Shown here piece by piece: positions 6,471 through 30,403 of a stretch of 64,000 bases of DNA. The stretch is from contig NZ_CP044532.1 in the NCBI RefSeq assembly GCF_026427775.1, positions 2,232,001-2,296,000 of the forward strand, written 5' to 3'. The notes under the pieces were generated by a model, which did not search any database, was not told the origin of the DNA, and saw only the letters and a list, made by a program, of their open reading frames with translations. The translations under genes were made by a program, and so were the position numbers. Each line of letters starts with the position of its first letter. Within the stretch, counting starts at the first letter, position 1. This stretch comes from Arthrobacter sp. CDRTa11 (GTDB taxonomy: Bacteria; Actinomycetota; Actinomycetes; Actinomycetales; Micrococcaceae).

Positions 6471-6529
6471 TTGTGTCCCCTCTCACAAAGTGATCTAATG
6501 AAAGTGCACTCCGAAAGGATGACACTTTC
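6471..6529 (+). promoter_or_regulatory. Promoter and 30-bp tandem operator of flavin reductase 1
   Basis: Predicted -35 TTGTGT (6471-6476), 17-bp spacer and -10 TCTAAT (6494-6499). The operator occupies 6500-6529, directly after the -10 box: GAAAGTGCACTCC, then GAAA, then GGATGACACTTTC. The 13 + 4 + 13 layout recurs at six other promoters in this window. Its position over the transcription start suggests repression. Confidence 0.75.
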
Positions 6530-6557
6530 AAATTAGCTCCAAGACCGAAGGAAAGCT

Positions 6558-7061
6558 ATGACTACGCTCGCTATCACTGAATCATTGGACCTCAAAGAGG
6601 TTTTCTCAAAGTTTCCGACGGGGGTAGCTGCAATCAGCGCGATGGTACAAGGGGTTCCTAAGGGGCTTGTTGCCTCCTCGTTCACGGTAGGAGTCTCCAT
6701 GGACCCACCCCTGGTTTCCTTTTCGGCTCAACATACCTCCACTACGTGGCCTGTTCTCCGTAATGCCGAAAGGATCGGTGTCTCCATCTTGGGATCGGAG
6801 CAGCAGCAGACGTGTCTCAGGATGGCATCGCGCAGGCCTGACAAGTTCGATGACATCCTTTATCGCGTCAACGATCAGGGAGCCATCGTTGTCCCTGGCT
6901 GTTCCCTGTGGTTGGAGTGCTCCGTCTTTGCAGAACTTCCCGCCGGAGATCATTCGGTGGTACTCCTCAAAGTGGAATCCGCCCAAGCCTATTCTGACAA
7001 GAGTCCCATCATCCTCCACGAGTCCCTGTTCAAGTTTCTAGAAGCCCCGCAGGCAGTCTAA
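6558..7061 (+). CDS. Flavin reductase domain protein, copy 1 (two-component monooxygenase partner)
   Basis: A 167-residue short flavin reductase of the HpaC/FMN-binding split-barrel type. Visible features are FPTGVAAISA near the start, GLVASSFTVGVSMDPPLVSF for flavin binding, and RIGVSILGSEQQ. Such proteins supply reduced FMN or FAD to a separate monooxygenase. Here the candidate is the NtaA/SnaA-type enzyme at 26883, whose promoter carries the same operator. GAAGGAA precedes the ATG. The paralogue at 30445 has the same length and roughly 60 percent amino-acid identity by eye, so the duplication is not recent. Confidence 0.9.
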   Translation: MTTLAITESLDLKEVFSKFPTGVAAISAMVQGVPKGLVASSFTVGVSMDPPLVSFSAQHTSTTWPVLRNAERIGVSILGSEQQQTCLRMASRRPDKFDDILYRVNDQGAIVVPGCSLWLECSVFAELPAGDHSVVLLKVESAQAYSDKSPIILHESLFKFLEAPQAV

Positions 7062-7329
7062 GCCCGGCCTCTTCGATAATACTGACGTCGAACGTTGCCA
7101 TGCTGCACCGGGCAGCCCGCGAATCTCGCCCACTTACGGAGACGCTTCCGATCATCCGGTCGGGCTGCGTTTCACTGAAAGGGGCGGGAACGCCTTCCCT
7201 CCAGTTCTTGGATGATTAAGTCCTAGTGGATGCCAACAGCGCCCGGTTTACCGGTGGCACCATGTCCGCGTCCGAGGACTTACCTTGCGGTGACCTGGCG
7301 CATCCTCTGCCTGTAACGGGTTTTTGCTT

Positions 7330-8056
7330 ATATTGGTGACTAGTAATTTCCGCCACCTGCGCACCGGAAGCGCTGCCGCCCCGGCCACTGCCGCGGCGGC
7401 CCTTGACCTGCTGGGAGAGGTTTTGCCGGGTCTCGAGTATGGCCTGATTGGCCAGCGAGATCTAGTGGAAATGATCAACCGCGACCGCGGTGTGGGCCAG
7501 CCACATCCGCAACTCTTTGCGGAACGCCGCCGGGGGATCGATCGAGACGACCTGCACGGCCAGGCGCTATTGAAGGCGCAGGGCGAACATCCAGTCCCCT
7601 GACCTTGTGATCGCGGCCGTCGACCACGCCAAGGACCTACCCGGTGTTCCAAAATCCACGATGGTTGTCATCCACGGCTCGAACCGTATCCACGCCCAGG
7701 TTGACGTGTCCTAAATTAGCGAACAGACCGGAGCCAGTGTTCATCAATGCCGAGCATCAGCCGGACTGAGCTTGTCCACATCGGGCAGCTGCAGTTGGCA
7801 GGCCACGGTTGCGGCCCGGACCATTGACCACGAAGTACCGCAGATTGCAAAAGCTGAGGTAACCGGGGCGTGGGTGGCAGCCAGAAGGATGCTTGGGCGG
7901 TGAGCCGTCTACGGCTAGAGATTCGAGCTTCAAGCCCTGCTTGACCTGTACGGTTCCAACGGCGAGAGCCGTTCGAGGCTGACCGCCAGCTGCACACCGG
8001 ACGTCCTTCATCGCCGGAGCAACACCAGTTTCTCCATGATCAGCAAAGGATCTCAC
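7330..8056 (-). pseudogene. Decayed ISL3-family transposase
   Basis: Reading the minus strand across two or three frames reconstructs much of an ISL3-type DDE transposase. MLGIDEHWLRSVR lies near 7730-7760 (complement). EPWMTTIVDFGTPG and SGDWMFALRLQ, a stop, then RLAVQVVSIDPPAAFRKELR follow, and AVAVDHFH before LANQAILETRQNLSQQVKGRRG. These match the family's RMLGIDE, VVAIDPSAAFRKAL and VDAFHLVKLAN blocks as I remember them. Frameshifts, internal stops and the missing C-terminal third show it is dead. No terminal inverted repeats could be delimited. The remnant lies near the left end of the monooxygenase cluster. Confidence 0.75.
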
Positions 8057-8448
8057 TACTTGGTGAAGGCATGCTCATCATCAGTCCCTTCTGAAATACC
8101 CGCACTCATTCCTCTGGGCAGCGCTTGCTGTTGGTCCGGATCTGTCCGGGCCCTACACTTCCATACCGTTATTAGTATGAAAAAATGATTTCGTAGCCAC
8201 GCCGTTAGCGGCTATCCGTATCCCAGACCGTCCGGCACATCAGCCACCACCCCTCGCCGGACCAAGGTGTCGCCACCACGGATACTAACGCCGTCGCCTA
8301 TGCGGCACGCCCGCCACGCCTCTGCAATCCGAAGGTGATAGGCAGTGGGTTGTGGTGAATGACCTGATGCGGGGTCGTCCAGGTTGGAACGACCAAGGAA
8401 ATGACCCATGATGCCGTCCTAGGTATGGATGGGCGCTGCCGGTCGCAG
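8057..8448. other. Intergenic stretch between the ISL3 remnant and pdxS
   Basis: No accepted gene. A 65-codon open frame on the minus strand (8212-8409) has no recognisable domain and no ribosome site. The stretch may be more insertion-sequence debris. Confidence 0.4.
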
Positions 8449-9729: not shown

Positions 9730-11166
9730 TTAGGCTCTGGTGCCCGCAAGGGCGCTTTCGGCTTCCTTCAGCACCGCGGCTACGCTGGCAACCAGCCAGT
9801 CAATTTCGTCGCGGTTGAGGATGAGAGGCGGGGAGAATTGGATAAGAGGGGCGCCGCCCTGGTCTACAGCTGCCCGGCAGAGGACACCTGCCGACAGCAA
9901 CCCGGGGGCCAGATGATTTGCTACAAAATCGGCAGCATCTACCGGGTCGGCCCATGTGCGCTTTTCCTTGTCGGTGGCCAGCTCAAGGGTCCAGTGATAA
10001 CCGGCGCCTCGAACGTCTCCAACCAGGGCAAGCGAGCCCAGATCGGCCATGCGGGTTCGGAAGTAATCTTCGTTATGCCTGACGTTGCCCAGAACGTCTT
10101 CGCGTTCCATAATCGCCAGGTTGGCCAGCCCTGCGGCGCAGGCGGAAGGATTCCCTCCGTAAGTGAGGCCGTGCAGGTACATCCCTGCAGGACCATTGAG
10201 CACGGTATCGACCACGTCACTGGTGGCGATCATTGCGCCCAGCGGGACGTAGGCGGAAGCTATTCCCTTGGCGCAGGTGATGATGTCTGGTTTGAGGCCA
10301 AAACGCGTCGATGCAAACCATTCCCCGAGGCGGCCGAACCCGGTGATGACTTCATCCGCTACCAGCAAAATGCCGTATTTGTCGCAAATCGCCCTGACGC
10401 CTTCGCAGTATCCGCGGGGTGGGGTTACTGAACCGGCCGCGTTCTGAAGGGGTTCGATGAAGATGGCAGCTACTGTGTCCGGTCCTTCTTGGCGGATCAA
10501 TTCCTCAAGCTCGTGGAGCAGGAAGTCGGTGAACTGCTCCTCGGTCTCGTTGATCGGCCGCCTGTAACGGTTGGTATTCGAGAAATGGCGGGCACCATGC
10601 ATGAGCGGCTCGAATGGCTTCCGAAAGTTTGTCATGCCATTGATGGACAAAGCCGCAAACGATGTGCCGTGGTAGGCGTTCCTTCTGGCCAGGAACTTCA
10701 TCCGGGAACCTTCACCCTTGGCCTGATGGTACTGGCGAATGAGCTTGATGGCAGCTTCGTTGCTTTCGCTGCCGCCGGAGGTGAGGAAAACCCGGTCCAG
10801 GCCCTCAGGTGCGATCTCGGCGACCTTTGCGGCGAGCCGGACGGCGGGGGGGTGGGCATAGCCCCAGTTGGTGTAGTACGGCAGGTCAGTCATCTGGGCT
10901 TTGACTGCCTCCCCGATCTCCTCGCCGTGGCTGTAGCCGATTTGAACGCAGTACAAGCCAGCAAGAGCGTCGAGGTAACGGTTGCCCTTCTCGTCCTCCA
11001 GCCAGCACCCCTCGCCTTTGACCATGATGGCAGGAGGGGCCTCCGTGTAAGTATGGGCTCCGGTGAAGTGCATCAGGAGGTGCTTTTGGGCAAGGTCCTG
11101 CAGTTCCGAGGACTCCCGGGCTGCTGCGGACGTCTCGGGGGCAATGGTTTCGGTTGGCGTTGACAT
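9730..11166 (-). CDS. Class III PLP aminotransferase, probably amine/omega-amino acid:pyruvate transaminase
   Basis: A 478-residue class III (omega) aminotransferase of the putrescine/beta-alanine:pyruvate type. Visible are the N-terminal LDALAGLYCVQIGYSH, the phosphate-binding TSGGSESNEAAIKL, YHGTSFAALSI, the cofactor aspartate in LVADEVITGFGR, and the Schiff-base lysine in ITCAKGIAS. The ATG at 11166 (MSTPTE) follows AAAGAGAG and is preferred over the longer open frame, whose first 56 residues look non-coding. It lies 100 bp after the APC permease and shares that gene's operator-controlled promoter. The permease may import the amine or amino acid this enzyme deaminates. With alanine dehydrogenase at 16663 it could form a pyruvate/alanine cycle. 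Substrate is not resolved. Confidence 0.9.
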   Translation of the reverse strand: MSTPTETIAPETSAAARESSELQDLAQKHLLMHFTGAHTYTEAPPAIMVKGEGCWLEDEKGNRYLDALAGLYCVQIGYSHGEEIGEAVKAQMTDLPYYTNWGYAHPPAVRLAAKVAEIAPEGLDRVFLTSGGSESNEAAIKLIRQYHQAKGEGSRMKFLARRNAYHGTSFAALSINGMTNFRKPFEPLMHGARHFSNTNRYRRPINETEEQFTDFLLHELEELIRQEGPDTVAAIFIEPLQNAAGSVTPPRGYCEGVRAICDKYGILLVADEVITGFGRLGEWFASTRFGLKPDIITCAKGIASAYVPLGAMIATSDVVDTVLNGPAGMYLHGLTYGGNPSACAAGLANLAIMEREDVLGNVRHNEDYFRTRMADLGSLALVGDVRGAGYHWTLELATDKEKRTWADPVDAADFVANHLAPGLLSAGVLCRAAVDQGGAPLIQFSPPLILNRDEIDWLVASVAAVLKEAESALAGTRA

Positions 11167-11266
11167 GGCGGTTCTCTCTTTCTTGTGAATCCCACCTGCC
11201 CGGTGCAAGGGACAAGCGGACAGGCGGTGGCGGGCACCAACTGGTGCCACACTCAGGTTCTGAGGG

Positions 11267-12682
11267 TCAGGGGTTTCCCGCTGTTGCTTCCTGGCTGGTG
11301 CGTACAGGGAGCTCTGGTGTTTCGATCTCCTCAAAGGTGACCTCGGGCAGCGGGCGGCGGAACATCCTGGTCAGGGACAACAGCCAGACCAAGCCGAGAC
11401 CGATCCAAATAAAGCCCACCCAAAAGGCGACTTCCGTGAGCTGGGTCCAGAGCCATAATGTAAGGGCAACACCAATGCCTGGCACGACGGCATAGCGGAG
11501 GATTGCGCGCGCACCACGATTGCCCTTGTCGATTACGTAGTGCTTGATGACGGTTAGATTCACGAAGGTGAAGGCGGAAAGGGCGCCGAAGCTGATCAGT
11601 GCCGCAGCAGTCGTGCCGTCAATGAACAGCGCGGTGAGGCCGAATGCACCTGAAATTACTGTGGCATTGACGGGGGTGCTGAAGCGCGTGTTCATTTGCC
11701 CGAAGACCCGCTTCGGCAACGCAGCGTCGCGCCCCATCGCGTAGAGGATGCGTGAAACGCTTGCCTGAGAGGCCATTGCGCAGGCAAAAAGGCCGGCGCA
11801 GTAGGCGGCGGTGAAGAACACGGACAGCCATTCCCCGCCTGCGTGAGTCATGACCTCCAGCGTCGCGGCGTCGACGTTTTCGAATGTGTAGCCGGGGAAG
11901 ACCATCTGCGCGGTGTAAGCGATTCCGATGTAGAGGCCTCCACCGATCAAAGTGCAAAGCAGGATGGCCCGGGGAATTTTCACCCTCGGATTATCTGTCT
12001 CTTCGGCCAGCGTGGACACCGCATCGAAGCCCAGGAAAGAAAGGCATAGCATTGCAGCGCCGGCGATCACTCCTCCGATGGGCATATCGGGGGAGAAGAA
12101 CGGTGTGATAGGTGATGGTAGGTCCTGGCCGCCCATAGTCTGAACTGAGGCCAGAATAAAGACCGCGATGAAGACAAGCTGGAACCCGACCATGACCAGG
12201 TTCATTTTAGCCACCATCTTAATGCCCAAAATGTTCAGCCCTGTGACGAGGACAACAGCGCCGACGATCCAGACGGCGACAGGCACCTCCGGAGTGTATG
12301 GCTGCAGATAGATGCCCAAAAACAGGTAGCAGATCATCGGCAGCAGAATGTAGTCGAGCAACAAGGCCCAGCCCACGACGAAGCTGGTGTTAGCACCAAA
12401 TGTCCGCCGGACGAACGTGTAGGTCGAACCCGAGCTAGGGTGCGCCTTCACCATCGCACCGTAGCTGGTTGCCGTGAACAGCATCGCAATCAGGGTCACG
12501 ATGTATGCCGCTGCAACATGTCCCTCGCTCATGACGCTCACATAGCCAAAAGTTGTGAATACCGTCAACGGAACCATGTAGGCCAATCCAAAGAGGACCA
12601 GTGCGGGCAAGCCCAGCACGCGCTTATAGCGTGGGGATGCAGCCGCTTCCGATGGGGCGGTTTGGGAAGTGGAAGAATTCAT
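11267..12682 (-). CDS. APC family amino acid/amine permease
   Basis: A 471-residue membrane transporter with about twelve hydrophobic helices and the amino acid-polyamine-organocation signature near the N-terminus (VLGLPALVLFGLAYMVPLTVF) plus SSGSTYTFVRRTFG. It resembles PuuP-type and other amine or amino acid uptake carriers. The ATG at 12682 is well placed. It is the first gene of a leftward unit with the class III aminotransferase and is divergent from the Tmm-like monooxygenase; each side has its own copy of the operator in the gap. Likely role: import of the amine or amino acid feeding the pathway, powered by a proton or sodium gradient. Confidence 0.9.
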   Translation of the reverse strand: MNSSTSQTAPSEAAASPRYKRVLGLPALVLFGLAYMVPLTVFTTFGYVSVMSEGHVAAAYIVTLIAMLFTATSYGAMVKAHPSSGSTYTFVRRTFGANTSFVVGWALLLDYILLPMICYLFLGIYLQPYTPEVPVAVWIVGAVVLVTGLNILGIKMVAKMNLVMVGFQLVFIAVFILASVQTMGGQDLPSPITPFFSPDMPIGGVIAGAAMLCLSFLGFDAVSTLAEETDNPRVKIPRAILLCTLIGGGLYIGIAYTAQMVFPGYTFENVDAATLEVMTHAGGEWLSVFFTAAYCAGLFACAMASQASVSRILYAMGRDAALPKRVFGQMNTRFSTPVNATVISGAFGLTALFIDGTTAAALISFGALSAFTFVNLTVIKHYVIDKGNRGARAILRYAVVPGIGVALTLWLWTQLTEVAFWVGFIWIGLGLVWLLSLTRMFRRPLPEVTFEEIETPELPVRTSQEATAGNP

Positions 12683-12909: not shown

Positions 12910-12968
12910 GAGCGTGCACTCCGATCGAAGCGTACGTTCAGTAAAGCATGACTTTTTCAGCATGTGAA
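12910..12968 (-). promoter_or_regulatory. Promoter and 30-bp tandem operator of the permease-aminotransferase unit
   Basis: On the minus strand: -35 TTCACA (12968-12963), 17-bp spacer, -10 TTTACT (12945-12940), then the operator directly adjoining at 12939-12910. Its halves are GAACGTACGCTTC and GGAGTGCACGCTC, joined by GATC. The same -35, -10 and GATC linker are found at the promoter of the NtaA/SnaA-type monooxygenase. Confidence 0.75.
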
Positions 12969-12991
12969 GTGGAGCACCAAACTTTTCACGC

Positions 12992-13053
12992 TTGTGTCGC
13001 AGGCCACTCCGTGCTCTACTTTTGCGAGTGAGCTTCTAACGGAGTGCACTCCC
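12992..13053 (+). promoter_or_regulatory. Promoter and 30-bp tandem operator of the Tmm-like monooxygenase
   Basis: -35 TTGTGT (12992-12997), 17-bp spacer, -10 TCTACT (13015-13020), operator 13024-13053 with halves GCGAGTGAGCTTC and GGAGTGCACTCCC joined by TAAC. The second half contains the perfect 12-bp palindrome GGAGTGCACTCC (13041-13052), the most symmetric site seen. Confidence 0.75.
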
Positions 13054-13184: not shown

Positions 13185-14549
13185 ATGAATAAACGCATCG
13201 CCATTATTGGGGCCGGCCCCAGCGGAATGGCTCAGTTGAGGGCCTTCGAATCCGCCCGGGCAAAGGGCGTGGATGTGCCGGAGGTGGTTTGCTTTGAAAA
13301 GCAGCGCGACTGGGGTGGCCAATGGAATTACACCTGGCGCACAGGCTTGGATGAGTACGGAGAGCCGGTTCATTCAAGTATGTACCGGCATCTGTGGTCC
13401 AACGCGCCCAAAGAATGTCTGGAGTTCGCGGAGTACACCTTTGACGAGCACTTCGGCCACCCCGTCTCGTCATACCCCCCACGGCAGGTCCTGTGGGACT
13501 ACATTCAGGGGCGGGCACTGCAGAGCAATGTCCGCCAGTACGTACGCTTCGAGACCTCAGTACGTGCAGTGCAGTATTTGGCCGCGGAAGATGCTTTTGC
13601 CGTCACGAGTGTTCACCTCCCGACAGGTGAAACAACCACCGACCTCTACACCGAGGTGGTCGTTGCCAACGGACACTTTTCCACACCCAACATGCCTGCT
13701 TTCCCAGGCATTGAGACCTTTCCCGGACGCATCTGTCACGCCCATGACTTCCGTGGTGCTGAGGACCTGGGGGGTAAGGATGTGCTGCTTATCGGAAGCT
13801 CATATTCCGCTGAGGACATCGGGATCCAGGCCCACAAAATGGGCGCCAGAAGCGTAACTTTCAGCTACCGGACCCGCCCCATGGGCTTCGGATGGCCGGA
13901 CGGGGCTCGGGAGTTGCCCTTAGTGCAACGCTTTGAGGGGCGGCGTGCATACTTTGCGAACGGCGAGTCGCACGAGTTTGACGCAGTGTTCCTATGCACG
14001 GGTTACAAGCACCATTTCCCTTTTCTTCCCAGCGACCTTGCTTTGAAGACCCAAAACTGCCTTTATCCGGACCACCTCTATAAAGGTGTTGTTTCGGAGG
14101 CAAACCAGCGGCTGTTCTTCCTGGGAATGCAGGATCAATGGTTCACCTTCAACATGTTTGATGCCCAGGCCTGGTATGTCCGCGATGTCATCCTCGGCCA
14201 GGCGAGCCTTCCCTCCCCGCATCAGCGACGAGCGGAGATCGATACGTGGCGGGAACGCCAGGAAAGCCTCTCCGGCGACAAGGACGAGGTGCAGTTTCAG
14301 GCCGATTACATAAAGGACCTTATCGAAGCAACTGATTATCCGATGTTTGACCTCGAAGAAGTTGTGGCTACTTTCCTGGCTTGGCAAGAGGACAAGAAAG
14401 CCGACATCCTTCGCTATCGTGACGTGTGCTACAGATCCATCATGACGTGTACGTTGGCCACGCCGCACCACACGCGTTGGCTCGATGCCATGGACGACTC
14501 ATTCGATACCTATCTTGGCCCCGCCCTCGCCGAGGCAGCCCCACGTTAA
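13185..14549 (+). CDS. Flavin-containing monooxygenase resembling trimethylamine monooxygenase
   Basis: A 454-residue class B flavoprotein monooxygenase. The FAD Rossmann motif GAGPSG is at residues 9-14, the FMO signature FPGRICHAHDF (FxGxxxHxxxF) follows, and LLIGSSYSAED begins the NADPH-binding domain. Beyond these, WNYTWRTGLDEYGEPVHSSM, LWSNAPKE, CTGYKHHFPFLP and GMQDQWFTFNMFDAQAW look, from memory, very like bacterial trimethylamine monooxygenase (Tmm), so an N-oxygenation of a small amine is likely. The ATG at 13185 has AAGGAG upstream and gives the usual N-terminus. It is a single-gene unit controlled by the shared operator and closed by a hairpin at 14564. I leave the symbol blank because the substrate may differ from trimethylamine. 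Confidence 0.88.
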   Translation: MNKRIAIIGAGPSGMAQLRAFESARAKGVDVPEVVCFEKQRDWGGQWNYTWRTGLDEYGEPVHSSMYRHLWSNAPKECLEFAEYTFDEHFGHPVSSYPPRQVLWDYIQGRALQSNVRQYVRFETSVRAVQYLAAEDAFAVTSVHLPTGETTTDLYTEVVVANGHFSTPNMPAFPGIETFPGRICHAHDFRGAEDLGGKDVLLIGSSYSAEDIGIQAHKMGARSVTFSYRTRPMGFGWPDGARELPLVQRFEGRRAYFANGESHEFDAVFLCTGYKHHFPFLPSDLALKTQNCLYPDHLYKGVVSEANQRLFFLGMQDQWFTFNMFDAQAWYVRDVILGQASLPSPHQRRAEIDTWRERQESLSGDKDEVQFQADYIKDLIEATDYPMFDLEEVVATFLAWQEDKKADILRYRDVCYRSIMTCTLATPHHTRWLDAMDDSFDTYLGPALAEAAPR

Positions 14550-14755: not shown

Positions 14756-14816
14756 TTGTGCCGCAGGTCACGAACATGCTCTAATTAGAAGTGAGCTCCT
14801 AACGGAGTACACTTTC
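14756..14816 (+). promoter_or_regulatory. Promoter and 30-bp tandem operator of the aldehyde dehydrogenase
   Basis: -35 TTGTGC (14756-14761), 18-bp spacer, -10 TCTAAT (14780-14785), operator 14787-14816 with halves AGAAGTGAGCTCC and GGAGTACACTTTC joined by TAAC. The whole segment from the -35 onward closely resembles the promoters at 12992 and 26755. Confidence 0.75.
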
Positions 14817-14900: not shown

Positions 14901-16262
14901 ATGTACCAGATCGTCAATCCAGCAACAGGTTTGTTGGTAGAAGAGTTTCCAACAGCAACCAACGAGCAGGTGAGCGCGGCTGTCGGCCGCTCACATGACG
15001 CTTACCGGCTGTGGCGGGAGCGGCCGGTCGAAGACCGGGTCTTGGCGGTGAAGCGTGCAGGCGAGCTCTTTCGCGAACGGAGCGAAGAACTTGCAGCCAT
15101 CATTGCCCAAGAGATGGGCAAGAGGATTGACGAGGGCAAGGGCGAACTGCAACTTGTGTCAGACATCTTCGCCTATTATGCCGAGAACGGGCCGGCGCTG
15201 CTTTCCGACGAGCAGCTGGAGATCAAAGGCGGAAAGGCGCTGATCCAGAAGCGCCCCGTGGGTTCACTAATCGGTGTTATGCCGTGGAACTACCCGTATT
15301 ACCAGGTTGCCCGCTTTGTTGCCCCAAATCTGGTTCTCGGTAATACCATCCTGCTCAAGCACGCACGGAACTGCCCCCGTTCCGCCGCCGCCATCGAGCA
15401 GCTCCTCCATGACGCGGGCGTCCCTGAAGATGCTTACATCAACATCTACGCCACGAGCGACCAAATCGCCTGGATGCTTTCCGATGACCGGATCCAAGGC
15501 ATCTCTCTGACTGGAAGCGAACGGGCTGGTGCGGCGGTGGGTGCCACAGCCGGACGCAACCTTAAAAAATGCGTTCTGGAACTCGGCGGATCCGACCCCC
15601 TGATCGTGCTCGATACCGCCGACATGGACAACACCGTTGACACCGTCGTCAGCGCAAGAATGGGCAACAATGGCCAGGCCTGCAACTCACCCAAGCGGAT
15701 CATCGTGATGGACGACCTCTTCGAAGAGTTCGTTGAAAAGGTAACGGCCCGTATGTCCTACTACAAACCAGGTGACCCCGCCGATCCGCAGACGACGCTC
15801 GCCCCGCTCTCTTCCCAGCAAGCCGCCGACGAGCTGATCGAACAGATCCAGGACGCCGTCGACAAGGGTGCCTCCCTGCTGACCGGCGGAAGGCACATTG
15901 ACAGACCAGGGGCGTTCGTCGAACCAGCAGTCCTGACCGGGGTGACGAAGGACATGCGCGCGTACTACGAGGAGCTCTTCGGCCCCGCCATCGTGATCTA
16001 CCGCGCCGCCAGCGAGGATGAAGCCATCGCTTTGGCCAACGACTCGGTTTACGGCCTTGGCGCCAGCGTCTTCAGTGCAGACCCCACACGTGCCCAGCGG
16101 GTCGGTGACAGGCTCGAATCAGGCATGATCACGGTTAACACCCCACCGGGTTCACTGCCTGACGTACCGTTCGGAGGTATCAAGCGTTCAGGCATCGGCC
16201 GCGAACTTGGCCCTCTCGGCATTGAGGAATTCATGAACAAGAGGGCCGTCCGCCTGCCTTAG
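14901..16262 (+). CDS. NAD(P)-dependent aldehyde dehydrogenase (succinate-semialdehyde dehydrogenase-like)
   Basis: A 453-residue aldehyde dehydrogenase, slightly short at the N-terminus as in the YneI/Sad-type subfamily. Catalytic features are present: PWNYPYYQ and LKHARN for the cofactor site, the glutamate in VLELGGSDPLIVL, the nucleophile in NGQACNSPKRI, and the C-terminal PFGGIKRSGIGRELG. It is controlled by the shared operator and so belongs to the same regulon as the monooxygenases and the aminotransferase. The likely role is oxidation of an aldehyde released by N-dealkylation or transamination. Its natural aldehyde is not known; a second, different family member lies at 21451. Confidence 0.92.
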   Translation: MYQIVNPATGLLVEEFPTATNEQVSAAVGRSHDAYRLWRERPVEDRVLAVKRAGELFRERSEELAAIIAQEMGKRIDEGKGELQLVSDIFAYYAENGPALLSDEQLEIKGGKALIQKRPVGSLIGVMPWNYPYYQVARFVAPNLVLGNTILLKHARNCPRSAAAIEQLLHDAGVPEDAYINIYATSDQIAWMLSDDRIQGISLTGSERAGAAVGATAGRNLKKCVLELGGSDPLIVLDTADMDNTVDTVVSARMGNNGQACNSPKRIIVMDDLFEEFVEKVTARMSYYKPGDPADPQTTLAPLSSQQAADELIEQIQDAVDKGASLLTGGRHIDRPGAFVEPAVLTGVTKDMRAYYEELFGPAIVIYRAASEDEAIALANDSVYGLGASVFSADPTRAQRVGDRLESGMITVNTPPGSLPDVPFGGIKRSGIGRELGPLGIEEFMNKRAVRLP

Positions 16263-20541: not shown

Positions 20542-21243
20542 TTATTCCTGGTCATCGATACTGAAAGAGTCTGCCTGCGCGCGTCCAAGAGGGTACGCCA
20601 TGTCGTCCCGTGTGCGTTGCGGCAGTGTCTGGGGGCCCGTCATGACCACATATGCGATGCAGGGCTTGTCGCCGATGTTCCTGTAAGCGTGGGTGCAGTC
20701 AGAAGCGAAATATATCGCGTCTCCCGTATCCAAGCGGTGGGATAGTCCGTCAATAGTCATTTCCAGGATGCCGCTTTCGACCACTACATACTCTGACCAA
20801 CCAGGTTGATGGGGCGGATATGTACCGCCGTCAACACCAGCCTCCATTTCGAGCCGGCCCATTTCGAAATTGACGTTCTCAAGTACTGGAGATGTGACCC
20901 TGCGCCAAAAGCCCGGTTTTCGTCCGCGTCGTTCTGGTTCCTGGACGATCTTCTGATCTTGGCGTCGTATAACGGATACTCTGCTCTGCGTCTGACTGGC
21001 CAGAAGACGTGAGACGCTCACTCCCAACGCACTGGCGATTTGGTCCAGGGTCAGGACTGTTGGAATTTTGTCACCCCGCTCGATGGCTGAGAGCATGCTG
21101 CGGCTCGAGCCGCCGCGGGCAGCAAGCTCGTCCAGAGTGAATCCCAGGCGCCGTCGTTCGGCTTTGACCCTTGCCCCGATTTCAAGGGCGAGGTGACGCC
21201 GGCGTGTGCCGCCGGGGGCTTCGTCCTCGTTCGTCATGGTCAC
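20542..21243 (-). CDS. XRE-cupin transcriptional regulator (PuuR-like)
   Basis: A 233-residue regulator with an N-terminal XRE helix-turn-helix (about 30-80: FTLDELAARGGSSRSMLSAI, then ERGDKIPTVLTLDQIASALG) and a C-terminal cupin domain (about 135-215: HQPGWSEYVVVESGILEMTI, LDTGDAIYFASDCTHAYRN). This layout is that of PuuR and relatives, which sense amines or other small acids. It is on the same strand as the succinate-semialdehyde dehydrogenase-like gene and lies downstream of it, separated by a hairpin terminator at 21352-21402, so it has its own promoter. Control of the neighbouring dehydrogenase is plausible but not shown. Confidence 0.9.
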   Translation of the reverse strand: MTMTNEDEAPGGTRRRHLALEIGARVKAERRRLGFTLDELAARGGSSRSMLSAIERGDKIPTVLTLDQIASALGVSVSRLLASQTQSRVSVIRRQDQKIVQEPERRGRKPGFWRRVTSPVLENVNFEMGRLEMEAGVDGGTYPPHQPGWSEYVVVESGILEMTIDGLSHRLDTGDAIYFASDCTHAYRNIGDKPCIAYVVMTGPQTLPQRTRDDMAYPLGRAQADSFSIDDQE

Positions 21244-23550: not shown

Positions 23551-25119
23551 TTATTCGCCGTACATGAAGCTGGACAGGAAACTGTCCAGGTCGGTTCCGC
23601 CGCGACGACTCTCGCCGACGGCAGCACCGGCTTCGACGAGCTCCTGCGCCCCCCGCTCCGAGTCTGTCGTGAAGTCGGATCTGTTCCACGCGGCGATCTT
23701 GCGGTAGTCCTCCACGCTGCCTGACCAGTTGTTGATGATGCGGCCAGCAGGGTTCTTGTACCAGCTGGAGCAGTTAGAGGCGAATGCTGAGTCTTTCAAT
23801 TCTTCCTGCAAGGCGCAGTTGTACAGCTCGAGCGTTGCTGGGGATACCTCGACCCAACTGCCTTCCTCGGCCCTCATCTCGTGCAGCATGTCCGTGACAT
23901 ACTTCTGCTGAATCTCAAGCATGCTGATGATGGAATTGTGATTGAGGTTGGTGTTGGGGCCATAGATCATGAACATGTTCGGGAACCCGTCCACGGTCAT
24001 TCCCAAGTAGGCTTCAGGGCTGTCCCCCCAGCGTTCTGCAAGGTCGACCCCATCCCGTCCGAAGATCCGAAGAGCGCCATGGAACGCCTGGGATTTGAAG
24101 CCTGTTCCAAAAATGATGACATCTCCTTCATGCAGGCTCCCGTCGGCCAGCACCACACCTTCGGGCACTACGCGCGAGATAGGTCCAGTGACCAGCTCGA
24201 CGTTTGGCCGCATCAATGCCGGGTAGTAATCGTCGGAGCGGAGAATTCGCTTGCATCCGAATTCGTAGTCTGGTGTAAGCTTCTGCCGCAGCTCAAGCTC
24301 TGGTACTTGGGCGGCAAGGTGGGCAAGTGCCTGATTCATTCCCTCGAGCTGGGCATCAGAGCCGTGACGTGTCCGCTCAAACCCATGTTCACGTGCCTGA
24401 TGGATGTTGTCCCTGCTTGCCTCAAAAAGGTCAGGGCTTGCTTGGAATGCGTTCAGTTCTTCCTGACTGAAAATCACCTGATTGCGCGGCAGCATCCAGT
24501 TTGCACTGCGCTGGAACACAACAAGTTCCGCTGCCACCTTCGCGACTTCCGGAATATATTGGACTGCACTCGCCGCGGTTCCGATGCTTAGAACGCGTTT
24601 GCCTTTCAATTCCACGCCGTGGTCCCACTGCGCCGAGTGGAAAATACTGCCGGCGAACGATGAAAGGCCGGGATAGCGGGGCGCTGAGGGAAGGTTGAGT
24701 TGGCCCCAGGCCGGAATGAGGAACCGGGCGTAATATACCTGACTGTCTGCGGCTGTCAGGCGCCAGCGGCTTTCGAACTCCTCCCAGCATGCTGTGACGA
24801 CTTCAGTGCCAAGGTGCAGCTGTTCTGAGAAGCTGAAGTAGTCAACCATGCGCTCGAGATAGGCCAGCAGTTCGTCCCGTCCTGCGTACATCCGGCTGAC
24901 AGTGAGATGCGGGAAGAAGCTGTAGTTGTAGATCTGGGCTTCCGTATCGCACGCTGCGCCTGGATAGTCATTGTTTCTCCAGACACCCCCAACGCCGTCA
25001 TTCCTTTCGAGGACGACAAAATCGTCGATACCCGCACGCTTGAGTTGCGCTGCCATGCCGAGTCCACCAAAGCCGGCTCCTAGAATCGCGGCAGTATGAG
25101 TCGTAGGTTCGGGTTGCAT
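23551..25119 (-). CDS. Baeyer-Villiger-type flavin monooxygenase
   Basis: A 522-residue FAD/NADPH monooxygenase. The first Rossmann motif is GAGFGG (14-19). The Baeyer-Villiger fingerprint FAGSIFHSAQW matches FxGxxxHxxxW, and SIGTAASAVQ marks the NADPH-binding fold. The C-terminal half has FGTGFKSQAF and MIYGPNTNLNHNS, usual in this group. The ATG at 25119 follows GAAGGGA and is preferred over an upstream TTG. It is downstream of the MHS-type MFS transporter by 35 bp and probably in its operon, thus under the shared operator. It would insert oxygen next to a carbonyl or oxygenate a heteroatom; substrate unknown. Confidence 0.9.
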   Translation of the reverse strand: MQPEPTTHTAAILGAGFGGLGMAAQLKRAGIDDFVVLERNDGVGGVWRNNDYPGAACDTEAQIYNYSFFPHLTVSRMYAGRDELLAYLERMVDYFSFSEQLHLGTEVVTACWEEFESRWRLTAADSQVYYARFLIPAWGQLNLPSAPRYPGLSSFAGSIFHSAQWDHGVELKGKRVLSIGTAASAVQYIPEVAKVAAELVVFQRSANWMLPRNQVIFSQEELNAFQASPDLFEASRDNIHQAREHGFERTRHGSDAQLEGMNQALAHLAAQVPELELRQKLTPDYEFGCKRILRSDDYYPALMRPNVELVTGPISRVVPEGVVLADGSLHEGDVIIFGTGFKSQAFHGALRIFGRDGVDLAERWGDSPEAYLGMTVDGFPNMFMIYGPNTNLNHNSIISMLEIQQKYVTDMLHEMRAEEGSWVEVSPATLELYNCALQEELKDSAFASNCSSWYKNPAGRIINNWSGSVEDYRKIAAWNRSDFTTDSERGAQELVEAGAAVGESRRGGTDLDSFLSSFMYGE

Positions 25120-25154
25120 AGGGGGATTTCCCTTCAATTCCGTCGAGGGCCTGC

Positions 25155-26522
25155 TCAGTTTGAAGCCGCTGAGGATGGCTGGGGCTGCTCTGAGGGCAGA
25201 GCCGGTTCATGCATGTCCTCATTCAGGTCCATGCCGCTGGTTTCTTTCATTTTGAAGCCGACGATGATGGTCAGTACGGCCAGTGACGCCAGATAGGCGT
25301 AGAAAACAGAGGCCAGGCCAATGCCGGTCAGCCAGGTGTACAGATAGGGTGCCGTGCCCCCGAAGACGCCTGCCGCCAGTGACGTCATCACACCGACGAC
25401 GCGGGCCCGTGCAAAGGTGGGCGCCAGTTCGGCCATCAGTGCCGGGTAGAAGCCAACGGCGAGAGCCCATGCCGTGAGGCCCAGTCCCTGGGCGACGAAG
25501 AGGGTCCAGGGCTGGTCAGTGAGAATCATCTGGATCGGCACGATCAGCAGGATCACGGCGATCCCGAGAGCCATGGTCATGGGGCGGCGTCCCACTTTAT
25601 CCGACAGGTGGCCGAACAGGACGAGGAAGAACAGCACCATGAGCTGGGCCAGCAGACTCGCGATGTAGGCGCCGCCCGGGTCCATGCCCTTCAATGTGAT
25701 TGCGTTTACCGGGGCAAACGTCACCCAGGTGTAGTAGACAACGTTGGTGCAGGAGGAGAGAAGGAAAATGAAAACGCAGGCCTTGTACACCCTTGCACGA
25801 TCCGCCGCTGACATCTTGCTTCCGGTTGGCTTCTGATGCTGCTCGGATTTCTGCTCAGTGAACACATCGGTTTCCTTGGCAAAACGCCGCAGGACAAGAA
25901 CGTACAGGGCGAGCAGACTTCCGAGTCCGAAGCCGACCCGCCAGCCCCATTCAGTCATTACCGCGCTGCCCAAGAGGTTGCTCAACAGGGCGGCCGTGGC
26001 TGTGGCGCCCATGACGCCGATCATCACGCTGACGTAGACGACACTCGTCCAGAGGCCGCGGCGTTCCTTCGGCGCAATTTCAGCAACATAGGTGTAGGAG
26101 ACGCCGGCTTCGCCGCCATGGGCCAAGCCTTGAAGCAGTCGCAGTACCAACAGGATGACCGAGGCCCAGGCCCCGATTTGGTCGTAGGTCGGGACCAGGG
26201 CAACGGCCAGTGTGGTGAACGAAAGAGTCATCATCGTGACCAGCAAGGTAAGCCGTCGTCCAACTCTGTCGCCGAGCCGGCCGAAAAAGAAGCCGCCAAC
26301 TGGACGGGCAATAAAGCCGCCGGCGAAGACGGCCATGGTGGACAGCAACGCGGACGTGGGGTTGCTGTTGTCAAAGAAGTTGGCGGCCAGATAGGTGGAG
26401 AAGATCCCGTAAAGGGTCCAGTCGAACCATTCGAGCATGTTTCCCGCAGCTGCGGCCCGTACAGACCGAAGTCGGTCCTTCATGGACAAGGCCGCGGCCC
26501 CACTCGTATGCAAACTACTCAT
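25155..26522 (-). CDS. MFS transporter, metabolite:H+ symporter type
   Basis: A 455-residue major facilitator of the MHS group. The N-terminus GNMLEWFDWTLYGIFSTYLA and the loop FGRLGDRVGRR are typical of proline/betaine, citrate and shikimate-type carriers, as is FGHLSDKVGRR in the second half. Twelve hydrophobic helices can be counted. It is the first gene of a leftward unit with the Baeyer-Villiger-type enzyme and is transcribed from a promoter carrying the 30-bp operator. It likely brings in a small organic acid or zwitterion that the pathway uses. Confidence 0.92.
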   Translation of the reverse strand: MSSLHTSGAAALSMKDRLRSVRAAAAGNMLEWFDWTLYGIFSTYLAANFFDNSNPTSALLSTMAVFAGGFIARPVGGFFFGRLGDRVGRRLTLLVTMMTLSFTTLAVALVPTYDQIGAWASVILLVLRLLQGLAHGGEAGVSYTYVAEIAPKERRGLWTSVVYVSVMIGVMGATATAALLSNLLGSAVMTEWGWRVGFGLGSLLALYVLVLRRFAKETDVFTEQKSEQHQKPTGSKMSAADRARVYKACVFIFLLSSCTNVVYYTWVTFAPVNAITLKGMDPGGAYIASLLAQLMVLFFLVLFGHLSDKVGRRPMTMALGIAVILLIVPIQMILTDQPWTLFVAQGLGLTAWALAVGFYPALMAELAPTFARARVVGVMTSLAAGVFGGTAPYLYTWLTGIGLASVFYAYLASLAVLTIIVGFKMKETSGMDLNEDMHEPALPSEQPQPSSAASN

Positions 26523-26695: not shown

Positions 26696-26755
26696 GGAAG
26701 TGCACTTCGTTAGGAGCGCACTTCTAGTAGAGCATGATCGTGACCTGCGGCACAA
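26696..26755 (-). promoter_or_regulatory. Promoter and 30-bp tandem operator of the MFS / Baeyer-Villiger unit
   Basis: On the minus strand: -35 TTGTGC (26755-26750), 18-bp spacer, -10 TCTACT (26731-26726), operator directly adjoining at 26725-26696. Halves AGAAGTGCGCTCC and GAAGTGCACTTCC are joined by TAAC. The segment from the -35 on is nearly the same as that upstream of the aldehyde dehydrogenase at 14901. Confidence 0.75.
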
Positions 26756-26799: not shown

Positions 26800-26858
26800 T
26801 TCACAGCGAGGCCGATACGTGCTTTACTGAGTGCGTACTTCGATCGGAGTGTCCGATC
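26800..26858 (+). promoter_or_regulatory. Promoter and 30-bp tandem operator of the NtaA/SnaA-type monooxygenase unit
   Basis: -35 TTCACA (26800-26805), 17-bp spacer, -10 TTTACT (26823-26828), operator 26829-26858 directly adjoining. Halves GAGTGCGTACTTC and GGAGTGTCCGATC are joined by GATC. Matches the permease promoter at 12968 in both boxes, spacer length and linker. The second half is the most degenerate of the set. Confidence 0.7.
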
Positions 26859-26882
26859 ACTTTAGGACTCTAGGAGCCGATG

Positions 26883-28268
26883 ATGAGTAAGCGCATCAGT
26901 CTCAATGCATTCAATATGGCGACTCCAGGGCACCAGAGCCCTGGGTTGTGGCGGCATCCCCGAAGCAAGACCGAAAATTACACCCAGCTGGACTATTGGA
27001 CGAACATGGCGAAACTCCTCGAAAAGGGCCGATTCGACGCCCTTTTCCTGGCGGATGTCCTTGGCCCCTACGACGTCTTCGAGGGTTCTGCCGCCCCCAG
27101 CCTGCGCGACGGCGTGCAGATTCCAGCTAATGATCCAACGGTGTATGTCTCTGCGATGGCGGCTGCGACCCAGAATCTGGGATTTGCCGTCACGGCGGCC
27201 GTGACATTCGAAAATCCGTACGCTCTGGCACGCAGGCTCTCCACTCTCGATCACGTGACGGCAGGACGCATCGGCTGGAACGTGGTGTCCTCCTACCTCA
27301 ATAGCGCCGCTCTCAACCATGGAATGTCCGGGCAGATGGCCCACGACCAACGGTATGAGCTGGCCGAGGAATTCATGGAAGTCGTCTACAAGCTCTGGGA
27401 AGGCTCGTGGGAAGACGACGCTGTGGTTCTTGACCGCGAAAGGGGCATTTACGTTGATCCTGAGAAGGTTCACCCCATTGGACATGCCGGTGAATATTTC
27501 AACGTACCGGGCTTCCACATGTGCGAACCGTCTCCACAGCGGTCTCCTGTCATCTATCAGGCCGGCGGTTCACCCCGCGGTCGCGCCTTCGCGGCTAAAC
27601 ATGGCGAAGGGCTCTTCGTTAATGTCCTGAACCCCACGCTCAGCCGTCAGATAACCGGCGACATCCGGGCAACTGCAGAGGCGGAGGGCCGCAACGGCGA
27701 GGACCTGAAGATTTTCTCCCTGCTGACGGCTGTCGTGGCCGATTCGGACGCGGCCGCTGAACGAAAGCTTGCTGAGTACCGCAAGCACGCATCCCACGCG
27801 GGCGCGATGGCCCTCTTTGGCGGGTGGTCAGGCGTTGACTTGAGCAAGTTCCCGCTGCACGAGCCGCTGAAGAACCTGGAATCAAATTCAATCCAGACCG
27901 TAGTGAACCTCTTTACCAAGGCCGACCCGTCGCGCGAGTGGACTCCGGCCGCTATTGCGGAATATCTCAGCATCGGCGGGATGGAACCAGTCATCGCCGG
28001 CAGCCCTGAAACGATTGCCGATGAAATTGAACGCTGGGTCGACGAAGGTGACCTGGACGGCATCAATCTTTCCTATGCTGTTTCACCGGGGGACTACGAA
28101 GACTTTGTGGAACTCGTCGTACCGGAGCTGCAGAAGCGGGGCCGGGTCTGGAAGGACTACGAGGGCTCCACGCTGCGCGAGTACCTCCGTGGGGAAGGCA
28201 ATACCCACGTCTCGGAAACCCATCCCGCCGCCAGCCACTCCATCTCCAGCCGGTTTGCCCCCAGCTAA
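26883..28268 (+). CDS. NtaA/SnaA/DszA-type FMN-dependent monooxygenase
   Basis: A 461-residue flavin monooxygenase of the two-component nitrilotriacetate monooxygenase group. Characteristic parts are ISLNAFNMATPGHQSPGLWR at the start, the MAKLLEKGRFDALFLADVLG helix-strand, VTFENPYALARRLSTLDHVT, and GRIGWNVVSSYLNSAALNHG. AGGAG at 26872 lies 6 bp before the second of two adjacent ATGs, so 26883 is preferred to 26880. It needs reduced FMN from a partner such as the reductases at 6558 or 30445, which share its operator. The family includes C-N, C-S and heteroatom-attacking enzymes, so the substrate is open. It is followed by a 16-bp perfect hairpin and then an MFS transporter gene. Confidence 0.9.
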   Translation: MSKRISLNAFNMATPGHQSPGLWRHPRSKTENYTQLDYWTNMAKLLEKGRFDALFLADVLGPYDVFEGSAAPSLRDGVQIPANDPTVYVSAMAAATQNLGFAVTAAVTFENPYALARRLSTLDHVTAGRIGWNVVSSYLNSAALNHGMSGQMAHDQRYELAEEFMEVVYKLWEGSWEDDAVVLDRERGIYVDPEKVHPIGHAGEYFNVPGFHMCEPSPQRSPVIYQAGGSPRGRAFAAKHGEGLFVNVLNPTLSRQITGDIRATAEAEGRNGEDLKIFSLLTAVVADSDAAAERKLAEYRKHASHAGAMALFGGWSGVDLSKFPLHEPLKNLESNSIQTVVNLFTKADPSREWTPAAIAEYLSIGGMEPVIAGSPETIADEIERWVDEGDLDGINLSYAVSPGDYEDFVELVVPELQKRGRVWKDYEGSTLREYLRGEGNTHVSETHPAASHSISSRFAPS

Positions 28269-28277
28269 GACAGCAGG

Positions 28278-28316: not shown

Positions 28317-28365
28317 ACCTGAGCGTCCTCACTAAGCGCGTCGACGGCGCGCCGGAAAGGCCACC

Positions 28366-29634
28366 ATGGCAGGCATAACGACGGTTGCTGCAGTTAGCAC
28401 CACCAGACCTCACACTAAGAGCGCGGTCCTGATTATCTGCGTCGCGACATTGCTCAGCATCAGCGTCTGGTTTTCTGCCTCATTCATCATCAAAGGCATC
28501 TCCGCTCAATGGCAGGTTCCGGAGGCTCAACTCTTCTGGGTGACGTTTGGTGTCCAGGCGGGCTTCATTCTCGGCGCCATCGCGTCCGCGCTCCTGCGCC
28601 TGCCGGATCGGCTTAGCGCTCGGGTACTATACAGTTCCTGCGCGGCGGGCGCCGCGGCGGCCAATCTCCTGCTTCTTGTGTTTCCCGGTTTCGAGGCCGC
28701 CCTCGCACTGAGGCTGGCCACAGGAATCTTCCTGGCAGGCATCTATCCTGTTGCCGTCCGAGAAACCCTAGCCTGGGTAAGCCCCGGACGGCGAGGTTTT
28801 GCTTCCAGCACACTGCTCGCCGCCCTGACCATCGGATCGGCCGCACCCCACCTGATCAACGGTGTCGGAAGTGCGGACTGGCGGGTTGTCATCATCGCCA
28901 CAAGTATCTGCTCTATTGTCGGCGGCCTACTGTTCCTTCTCGTTCCGGGGACCGCCCCATACAGGGACACCGGTACCCGCGTCAGCCTGCGTCAGGGACT
29001 TGCCGTGCTCAGGAACCGCAAAGTCCTGCTTGTAAACCTGACATACTTCAGCCACATGTGGGAGCTCTACGCCATGTGGACATTTGTGGGCGCCCTCTTC
29101 GCCCACCGTATTTCCGGCGGCGCGGCGCCTACTGGTCTGGTTGCGGTGGCTTCCTTCGTCATCATCGCTTCGGGTGCTCTGGGATGTATCGCCGCCGGAC
29201 TCTTAGCCGACCGCTTTGGCAAAATCATGATTTCGCAGATGTTCATGCTGCTTTCAGGCGCGGCGGCGACCCTGGTGGCGATAAGCGCCACCTGGCAACC
29301 AGCGGTGTTACTGTTCTTGTGCGTCCTCTGGGGGATGACCGTTGTCGGAGAATCGGCCCTTCTTTCTGCCCTGCTCCGCGACCACTGCCCTGAAGCCCAT
29401 GTCGGCAGCGCGCTCTCGGTACAGATGGCTGGAGGCTATGCAATCAGCGCCGGCAGCATCGCCCTATTCCCGCTCCTTGCCGGGGCCCTGAGCTGGGAAC
29501 TGGCAGTGCTTGCGCTCGTCCTTGGACCGGTGGTCGGAATCGCACTCCTCCAGTTGCTCAAATCAAGGCCGCGTCCACAACGTGATAATGGCACTGAATC
29601 GTCCATGAATGGCGAGTCTGCATCGTGTCCCTGA
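28366..29634 (+). CDS. MFS transporter
   Basis: A 422-residue major facilitator with about twelve membrane helices, beginning KSAVLIICVATLLSISVWFSASFI. The loop LPDRLSARV and the segment GIFLAGIYPVAVRETLAW resemble CynX/nitrate-nitrite-like and drug-type members. GGAAAGGCC precedes the ATG. Its last 10 nucleotides overlap the GTG of the TetR gene copy 2, so these two are translationally coupled. It probably follows the NtaA/SnaA-type gene in one transcript, read through the hairpin at 28278. It might import the substrate or export a product. Confidence 0.88.
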   Translation: MAGITTVAAVSTTRPHTKSAVLIICVATLLSISVWFSASFIIKGISAQWQVPEAQLFWVTFGVQAGFILGAIASALLRLPDRLSARVLYSSCAAGAAAANLLLLVFPGFEAALALRLATGIFLAGIYPVAVRETLAWVSPGRRGFASSTLLAALTIGSAAPHLINGVGSADWRVVIIATSICSIVGGLLFLLVPGTAPYRDTGTRVSLRQGLAVLRNRKVLLVNLTYFSHMWELYAMWTFVGALFAHRISGGAAPTGLVAVASFVIIASGALGCIAAGLLADRFGKIMISQMFMLLSGAAATLVAISATWQPAVLLFLCVLWGMTVVGESALLSALLRDHCPEAHVGSALSVQMAGGYAISAGSIALFPLLAGALSWELAVLALVLGPVVGIALLQLLKSRPRPQRDNGTESSMNGESASCP

Positions 29635-30260
29635 TAGCAGAGGCCTCCATGACACTGCGCGAACGGAAGAAGCGCCAGACCATGAAAAGCATTTTGGCCG
29701 CCGCTCGCGAGATGCTCTCCGAAAATGAATACGACAGCATCACGACCAAGGAAGTGGCCGCCAGGGCCGGCATCGGCGAGGCAACGCTCTTCCGGTACGT
29801 GGTCAACAAAAAGAACCTCTTCCTCCTCATCTACGAGGAGTTCTTCAACGACGTGCTGCAAGCCTGCCTGGACGAGGACGCCAAAGACACCACCGAACAT
29901 GGCACGGCCCAGTACTACATCGACAGAATCACAACGATGTACACATCCCTTGCCGGGCTCTACAAACGGGACCCCGACAGCGGCTACGTGTACGTGCGGG
30001 ACTCCTTCAGCCCCGAAGACTTCGGCCAACGCGGCCTGGAACAGGGCGACCGCTGGCACGCCCTCGTCGAACGGGTCATCCACAGAGGCCAGGACGCCGG
30101 CGTCCTCCGCCCGTCGCCGCCGCGCCTGATCGCCCAGAACATCCACGCCATCTATGTCCACGAAGTGCTCGCCACACACGCCCGCGGCCGCGACCCCAGA
30201 ACCATAGAGCAACGATTGGCGACGCGCATCTCCGCATTAGCGGGAACACTCACAACCTGA
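29625..30260 (+). CDS. TetR/AcrR family regulator, copy 2
   Basis: A 211-residue TetR-type repressor with helix-turn-helix SITTKEVAARAGIGEATLFR. It is a near-duplicate of the regulator at 5457-6104. The central 320 or so nucleotides match at all but a few positions, but the first 45 codons and last 30 codons diverge, a pattern that suggests gene conversion. The GTG overlaps the MFS stop; an ATG at 29649 (MTLRERKK) is an alternative. If it lies in the operator-controlled monooxygenase transcript, it would be autoregulated, whereas copy 1 lacks an operator of this kind. Confidence 0.92.
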   Translation: MSLIAEASMTLRERKKRQTMKSILAAAREMLSENEYDSITTKEVAARAGIGEATLFRYVVNKKNLFLLIYEEFFNDVLQACLDEDAKDTTEHGTAQYYIDRITTMYTSLAGLYKRDPDSGYVYVRDSFSPEDFGQRGLEQGDRWHALVERVIHRGQDAGVLRPSPPRLIAQNIHAIYVHEVLATHARGRDPRTIEQRLATRISALAGTLTT

Positions 30261-30344
30261 AGCACAACCGAACCTGCCCTATCCCTTGCTCCCAGCCTTG
30301 GCCGGTTCTGGTGTCTGCAGACCAAAAAACTGCCCCGCCAGCTC

Positions 30345-30403
30345 TTGCGAAATCACCTCTGCAATGCTCTAATGAAAGTACACTCCGAAAAAAGCTCGCT
30401 TTC
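30345..30403 (+). promoter_or_regulatory. Promoter and 30-bp tandem operator of flavin reductase 2
   Basis: -35 TTGCGA (30345-30350), 17-bp spacer, -10 TCTAAT (30368-30373), operator 30374-30403 directly adjoining. Halves GAAAGTACACTCC and AAAGCTCGCTTTC are joined by GAAA, the same linker as at flavin reductase 1. Confidence 0.75.

Follow-up and report, generated by a model that had tools for sequence, protein, structure and literature searches.

A paired 30-bp operator predicted to place flavin monooxygenase genes of Arthrobacter sp. CDRTa11 under the control of two paralogous TetR regulators

In a 64,000-nucleotide stretch of the Arthrobacter sp. CDRTa11 genome (NCBI RefSeq assembly GCF_026427775.1, contig NZ_CP044532.1, positions 2,232,001 to 2,296,000; referred to below as the window), seven promoters of flavin monooxygenase genes and associated genes contain a similar 30-bp sequence at or next to the -10 box, and an eighth copy is located elsewhere in the same genome. 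With a probability of about 0.85, these eight sites are operators of two paralogous TetR-family regulators, TetR1 and TetR2, which would recognize paired 14-mers, block transcription initiation, and govern an inducible flavin monooxygenase regulon with feedback through TetR2. The observations that carry this interpretation are the sites themselves, their restriction to eight places in the genome, their fixed position behind the -10 box, and their co-occurrence with one TetR subfamily.

When the sequence was read directly, all seven 30-mers were found at the positions given in a preliminary description of the window. Operator O1 (6500..6529, + strand) is situated in the promoter of flavin reductase 1, whose start codon follows 28 bp downstream, and directly adjoins the -10 box TCTAAT (6494..6499, +). 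O2 (12910..12939, - strand) belongs to the promoter of a permease and an aminotransferase gene (-10 box TTTACT, 12940-12945, - strand), O3 (13024..13053, +) to that of a Tmm-like flavin monooxygenase (TCTACT, 13015-13020), O4 (14787..14816, +) to that of an aldehyde dehydrogenase (TCTAAT, 14780-14785), and O5 (26696..26725, - strand) to that of a major facilitator superfamily (MFS) transporter and a Baeyer-Villiger-type monooxygenase (BVMO; TCTACT, 26726-26731, - strand). O6 (26829..26858, +) is located in the promoter of an NtaA/DmoA-type enzyme, a further MFS transporter and TetR2 (TTTACT, 26823-26828), and O7 (30374..30403, +) in that of flavin reductase 2 (TCTAAT, 30368-30373). Counted by eye, the distance between operator and -10 box is 0 in five of the seven promoters, 1 bp at 14787 and 3 bp at 13024, and the -35 and -10 boxes are 17 or 18 bp apart, both as originally reported. 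The division into three classes by the central four bases, read along transcription, was likewise borne out (TAAC at 13024, 14787 and 26696 on the - strand; GAAA at 6500 and 30374; GATC at 12910 on the - strand and at 26829), and the class follows the promoter sequence: TTCACA-17-TTTACT is found in both promoters of the GATC class, and TTGTGYCGCAGGYCAC is common to the three of the TAAC class. The half sites had been described as close to two sequences; several of them deviate clearly, among them the right halves of 6500, 12910 and 30374 and both halves of 26829.

A degenerate 30-mer pattern with up to three mismatches matched six times in the window, compared with a mean of 0.01 matches expected from 100 dinucleotide shuffles. 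With a matrix of the seven sites the weakest member scored 29.3 (on its + strand) and the best other window position 10.5, scores that are circular because the matrix was made from those same sites. In a leave-one-out analysis, a ranking of all window positions of the two strands placed each omitted site 9th to 14th, with up to 12 of the places occupied by the other sites, counted on both strands.

Across the 5.16-Mb genome the pattern search with up to three mismatches, which fails to pick up the site at 26829, yielded nine matches at seven places, six in the window and one outside, whereas the reversed control pattern had no match. A 30-position sequence-only profile, built from 30 operators with the eight own ones among them and applied to 150 of 1,077 first-look genome candidates, gave 16 strand matches at E <= 10, corresponding to eight places, and within that scope no further operator. 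The additional site (C1:2132077-2132106, - strand) is located 100 kb before the window start, with TTTACT directly before it, and precedes flavin reductase 3 (78% identical to flavin reductase 2) and then a MaoC-like gene (75%), the same gene order as after O7. As only eight places were found, the motif is not widespread in unrelated promoters, and the proposal of a single regulon gains support from the fact that the one site added by the genome-wide search also precedes a flavin reductase gene.

The eighth site is part of another monooxygenase cluster (locus L009, C1:2122100-2142000), some 100 kb ahead of the window, which contains paralogues of the window's aldehyde dehydrogenase (73%), BVMO (55%), flavin reductase (78%) and MaoC-like protein (75%). 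The flavin reductase operator is the only one detected in this cluster. Its aminotransferase copy (L009:10591-11940) is 89% identical to that of the window over 409 residues; its Pfam match stops at profile position 310 of 403, and the gene looks like a broken duplicate.

TetR1 (5457..6104, +) and TetR2 (29625..30260, +) are 88% identical to each other. Both contain the TetR_N helix-turn-helix (HTH) domain (39.2 and 42.8 bits; curated cut-off 24), and the AlphaFold2 model of TetR2 consists of ten helices with a mean pLDDT (predicted local distance difference test) score of 90.2, as would be expected of the TetR family, whose members are all-helical and have a distinct ligand domain at the C terminus. 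The GTG start codon of TetR2 overlaps the stop codon of the preceding MFS gene; because TetR2 thus begins inside the end of this gene, downstream of the enzyme encoded at 26880, it is probably transcribed from the O6 promoter. Upstream of TetR1, no operator was found within the window. The two proteins represent a narrow subfamily, with 14 matches in 5.8 billion clustered proteins, TetR2 included, nine of them at 71% identity or more.

An alignment scan of named genomes provided 26 loci encoding related TetRs, to which two plasmid loci were added to give 28. Two of these loci, L021 and L022, have near-identical sites and come from Arthrobacter sp. S39, in which the closest named relative of the cluster is found; they were excluded, and the test covered the remaining 26 distant loci (L023-L048). 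Of these 26 loci, 16 reached a score of 17.5 or more with a matrix of the eight own sites and 18 a score of 15 or more, whereas 60 column-permuted symmetric matrices reached 17.5 in a mean of 0.15 loci (maximum 2); when 20 kb of the window was shuffled 300 times, the highest scores averaged 8.5, with a 95th percentile of 13.1 and a maximum of 17.9. Loci scoring at least 17.5 were found in Nocardioides, Microtetraspora, Rhodococcus, Cryobacterium, Pseudarthrobacter, Paeniglutamicibacter and Microbacterium and on a Kocuria plasmid, and their TetRs share 31-46% identity with those of the window. Among 295 genomes of the same family the TetR profile (E <= 1e-25) matched in seven, the operator pattern in seven, both in five, and the reversed pattern in none; without the own genome the counts among 294 are six, six and four (Fisher p = 7e-7). 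Among 296 genomes of the class the TetR was found in two, the operator in four, both in two, and the reversed pattern in one. In the five other genomes with both, every matched operator is located within 14 kb of the TetR gene. This co-occurrence across the Actinobacteria supports the earlier suggestion that the TetR proteins bind the sites.

For the comparison of operators, 39 distinct sites were collected and three dropped as chance matches, leaving 36, of which 8 are own sites and 28 belong to relatives; near-identical sites occur among them. The three excluded are those of the motif-only genomes G371 (L063) and G379 (L058) and the match at L043:12308. In 24 of the 36 operators the directly abutting hexamer (gap 0, better of the two flanks) matches TATAAT in at least four of six positions, compared with counts of 0-13 at gaps of 1-44 bp, which peak at gaps 3 (13) and 8 (10) and are mostly 0-3. 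The operator thus abuts the -10 box across genera. A repressor placed over the start site blocks transcription initiation, and the location of the operator directly at the -10 box and over the start site therefore implies that the predicted repression would act by such a block. At L033:8684-8713 an operator between divergent genes has a -10-like hexamer at each edge, and this single site may be common to two face-to-face promoters.

Many of these promoters contain a further element, TTGTG-N8-CACAA, which begins 29-32 bp before the operator: 19 of the 36 have it with eight or more of the 10 positions matching, whereas nine control offsets gave 0-3 of 36. Within the window the match is complete (10/10) at 6471..6488 (+), where it overlaps the -35 box of the O1 promoter, and strong at 12992-13009 (+, O3; 8/10), 14756-14773 (+, O4; 9/10) and 26738-26755 (- strand, O5; 9/10), likewise over the -35 box; it is poor or absent at the promoters of 12910, 26829, 30374 and the eighth site. 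The element resembles the GlxR consensus TGTGA-N6-TCACA (PMC7999487) and is plausible as a CRP/GlxR site; a CRP-type gene is present in the genome (best candidate near C1:4255013). The competing view, that the sequence is merely an unusual -35 region, has slightly less than even odds. In its favour, the exact sequence occurs four times in the own genome compared with twice for the reversed control, so that a genome-wide enrichment is not clear, and the centre of the element near -27 is not a usual position for activation and fits repression better. Against it stand the excess of matches at a fixed offset and the position of the right half, CACAA, outside the -35 hexamer. Among 29 flanks with a TTGTG-like left half, 25 different N8 cores were counted, in loci that are related and hence not independent.

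The operator itself had been described as two 13-bp half sites around a 4-bp linker. It is better drawn as a pair of 14-bp quasi-palindromes placed 16 bp apart, GAKAGTGCACTYCG NN CGRAGTGCACTMTC, with a 2-bp centre and an overall dyad (36-operator consensus GAKAGTGCACTYCGNNCGRAGTGCACTMTC); across the 36 operators a central dyad and two local quasi-dyads are apparent. In the relatives' sites the core AGTG/CACT pairs of the local dyads are kept in 46-93%, the outer pair 2-13 in only 12%, position 2 being A in 88% and position 13 C in 96%. Two identical tandem 13-bp palindromes in the strict form were rejected for this reason, as position 2 is not mirrored by position 13, and the two 14-bp quasi-palindromes take their place. 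The preliminary description, whose seven sites stand, had noted neither the central dyad nor the eighth site nor the CRP/GlxR-like element.

Eight of the 26 distant loci contain no match of 15 or more to the own-site matrix. Twelve loci were scanned for two 14-bp units at free spacing, each result being compared with the best of 20 shuffles of the respective locus. This revealed candidates beside the TetR gene in Salinibacterium (GAGAGTGCACTCCGCTTTGATAGTGTACTATC, L029, unit spacing 18), Leucobacter (GAGAGTGCACTATCTATTTGATAGTCTACTCTC, L038, spacing 19) and Cryobacterium (L044, spacing 14), all above the shuffle best. Nothing motif-like was returned when 11 loci where the motif is absent or weak were searched for 30-mers in which no fewer than 12 of the 15 positions are paired. 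Because the units lie 14, 18 or 19 bp apart in some relatives, the operator unit is probably a 14-mer for one dimer, arranged in pairs, and the inner arms are best seen as turned into CACTYCG in the 16-bp form. A spacing of 16 bp would place the two units on roughly opposite sides of the helix. As suggested at the outset, binding of each operator by two repressor dimers is most likely and the natural reading, indirectly favoured by the 30-bp length and the 14-, 18- and 19-bp variants, although this stoichiometry is still an inference.

An alternative in which one TetR dimer binds the central dyad (ACTYCGNNCGRAGT), with the outer GAKAG arms in an accessory role, appears unlikely, with perhaps one chance in four. 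It would account for the better conservation of the overall dyad than of the local dyads at the ends, for the G at position 14 in 80% of the relatives' sites, mirrored by position 17, and for the violation of the local dyad by positions 2 and 13. However, the outer arms are conserved like the inner ones (positions 1, 2, 4 and 5 at 88-95%), the units of L029 and L038, at spacings of 18 and 19 bp, come closer to perfect local palindromes, and known single-dimer operators measure 15-17 bp, compared with 22-32 bp for dimer-of-dimers operators of TetR proteins (PMC4150764).

In a tree of the TetR proteins (29 rows, L032 left out) two fully supported halves were obtained, one with the window TetRs and all NtaA-linked ones and the other with all BVMO-linked ones. 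The 16-bp operator is found in both and hence probably ancestral; most loci that lack it belong to one weakly supported subclade, which also includes two loci with it. A tentative generalization, towards which we lean somewhat less than away from it, is that these proteins form a TetR subfamily with modular operators: each dimer would read the 14-bp GAKAGTG.CACTMTC, the spacing would evolve (14, 16, 18 and 19 bp), and one promoter cassette, with the operator behind the -10 box and often a CRP/GlxR-like site over the -35 box, would have been copied before changing flavin monooxygenase modules across the Actinobacteria.

Two further explanations are very improbable. A duplicated promoter block that spread with gene modules and has no regulator of its own would fit the correspondence of linker class and promoter sequence and the paralogous flavin reductase and MaoC units, but the motif is kept near TetRs of only 31-46% identity in several actinobacterial families, with different flanks. 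Alternatively, the operator could be bound by a different regulator encoded in the cluster, for example the HTH-cupin protein at 20542-21243 in the window, while the TetRs control something else; yet a homologue of this protein was seen in none of the 24 loci compared, only in the two of Arthrobacter sp. S39, and, as the named loci were themselves found via TetR, it carries weight that a TetR-independent motif search of the family genomes encountered the TetR in five of seven motif genomes.

Several observations weigh against the proposed operator-TetR pairing. The TetR occurs without an operator in the family genomes G210 (with a stop inside) and G242 (a weak match), and the operator without the TetR in the family genomes G371 and G379 and the class genomes G649 and G689. 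In three of the 26 distant loci (L031, L037, L042) the operator was not found. The spacing-14 form of Agrococcus L032 equals the shuffle best without exceeding it, and that of Agrococcus L026 was below the scan threshold and spotted by eye, so that the case for both is their position and their similarity to L044. The tandem-unit scan is itself weak, the two 16-bp operators of L023 scoring 25 and 24 with a shuffle best of 24. Of 121 genomes of the genus, an asymmetric pattern used first (up to two mismatches) matched 10 and its reversed control 5; single matches of this pattern are therefore no evidence, and it was replaced as too loose, several sites being matched only in the own genome (G000), G004 and G063. 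In addition, the related loci are not independent, and part of the likeness among the own promoters may stem from recent duplication.

From the combined evidence we infer the following sequence of binding, repression, induction and autoregulation. Two repressor dimers would occupy each 30-bp operator on about opposite faces of the helix; an operator located directly after the -10 box would span roughly -6 to +24, and RNA polymerase could not initiate while the repressor is bound. Release of the repressor would be brought about by a substrate or intermediate of the flavin monooxygenase pathway and would jointly turn on transporters, monooxygenases, aldehyde dehydrogenase and flavin reductases, of which the last would provide reduced flavin. 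With TetR2 apparently in one of its own target operons, negative feedback would result.

The putative targets fit into a few families. Flavin reductases 1 (6558..7061, +) and 2 (30445..30948, +) both match PF01613 and are 63% identical, and the latter is followed by a MaoC-like gene (31015..31473, +) with its paralogue after flavin reductase 3 at the eighth site. The O2 promoter precedes an amino acid permease (11267..12682, - strand; PF00324/PF13520) and a class III aminotransferase (9730..11334, - strand). The Tmm-like flavin monooxygenase (13185..14549, +) matches the NCBIfam trimethylamine monooxygenase equivalog with 735.5 bits (cut-off 675), and the aldehyde dehydrogenase (14901..16262, +) matches PF00171. 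O5 is followed on the - strand by the MFS transporter (25155..26522) and the BVMO (23551..25137), and O6 on the + strand by the NtaA/DmoA family monooxygenase dependent on flavin mononucleotide (26880..28268; TIGR03860, 529.7 bits, cut-off 279.7) and the second MFS transporter (28366..29634). The closest solved relative of the 26880-28268 enzyme is the dimethyl sulfide monooxygenase DmoA (6ak1, 590 bits), and from the similarities to DmoA and Tmm one may guess that the pathway acts on a methylated compound of sulfur or nitrogen, such as dimethyl sulfide.

In the 24 distant named loci (L023-L046) a BVMO homologue is found beside the TetR gene in 16 and an NtaA-type neighbor, 68% identical, in four (Nocardioides, Aeromicrobium); neither is present in another four (L026, L032, L041, L043), of which L026 and L032 are on contigs that stop close to the TetR gene. 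The Kocuria plasmid locus contains an annotated oxidoreductase dependent on NAD(P) and flavin adenine dinucleotide (FAD) and an alpha/beta hydrolase. On the large Rhodococcus opacus plasmid pRho-VOC14-L (L047), from a strain isolated from solvent-contaminated soil, an NtaA-type enzyme (68%) and a TetR relative (44%) are encoded about 2 kb apart, with a weak best operator score of 15.7. An FAD-dependent oxidoreductase-like protein encoded without an operator at 33197-34627 in the window has homologues (60-65%) within 7 kb of the TetR gene in Nocardioides L023 and Aeromicrobium L042. Further genes beside the cluster code for a protein with metallo-beta-lactamase and rhodanese domains (1859-3259), which we take to be of the persulfide dioxygenase type, and in the open reading frame 5-724 for what by eye resembles a membrane transporter; sulfur metabolism next to the cluster is thus possible.

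These results supply an operator sequence, from which targets in Actinobacteria may be predicted, for a TetR subfamily of which the literature searched held no description. As flavoprotein monooxygenases, an NtaA/DmoA-type two-component monooxygenase and their flavin reductases are tied to one presumed inducer, identifying it would show on which substrate the pathway acts. Being compact and fitted with a long operator of high specificity (eight places in the genome), the promoter is a potential sensor, and the spacing variants make the tolerance of a TetR dimer pair for changed spacing directly testable.

The regulon had been presented as not known from the literature, and no description was found among the titles and abstract openings of open-access papers; queries combining part of the motif with TetR, or TetR with Baeyer-Villiger, NtaA or flavin reductase, returned no paper on the system in that scope. 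Long TetR operators are already known, whereas this operator-TetR pair is undescribed as far as the open-access search reaches. The operators of QacR (28 bp), CgmR (32 bp), MS6564 (31 bp) and CprB (22 bp) are bound by dimers of dimers (PMC4150764), and the system described here resembles them in operator length (30 bp, with more than about 20 bp as the criterion of the class) and in its TetR-type regulator. It differs in its nearly separate 14-bp units, spaced 14, 16, 18 or 19 bp apart among relatives, in the mostly gapless position after the -10 box, and in its putative targets, flavin monooxygenases and their helpers. With EthR-EthA of mycobacteria it has in common a TetR-family repressor and a Baeyer-Villiger monooxygenase; the EthR gene adjoins that of its monooxygenase EthA. 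Of the 201 PDB sequences that match the profile of the present TetR subfamily, the best 60 include no chain with the name EthR. The two-component systems of DmoA and of NtaA/SnaA/DszA are resembled by the 26880-28268 enzyme, a member of the NtaA/DmoA family, and by the flavin reductases, which have an operator of the same kind; what distinguishes the present system is that two flavin reductases in the window and a third elsewhere in the genome are all preceded by the same operator.

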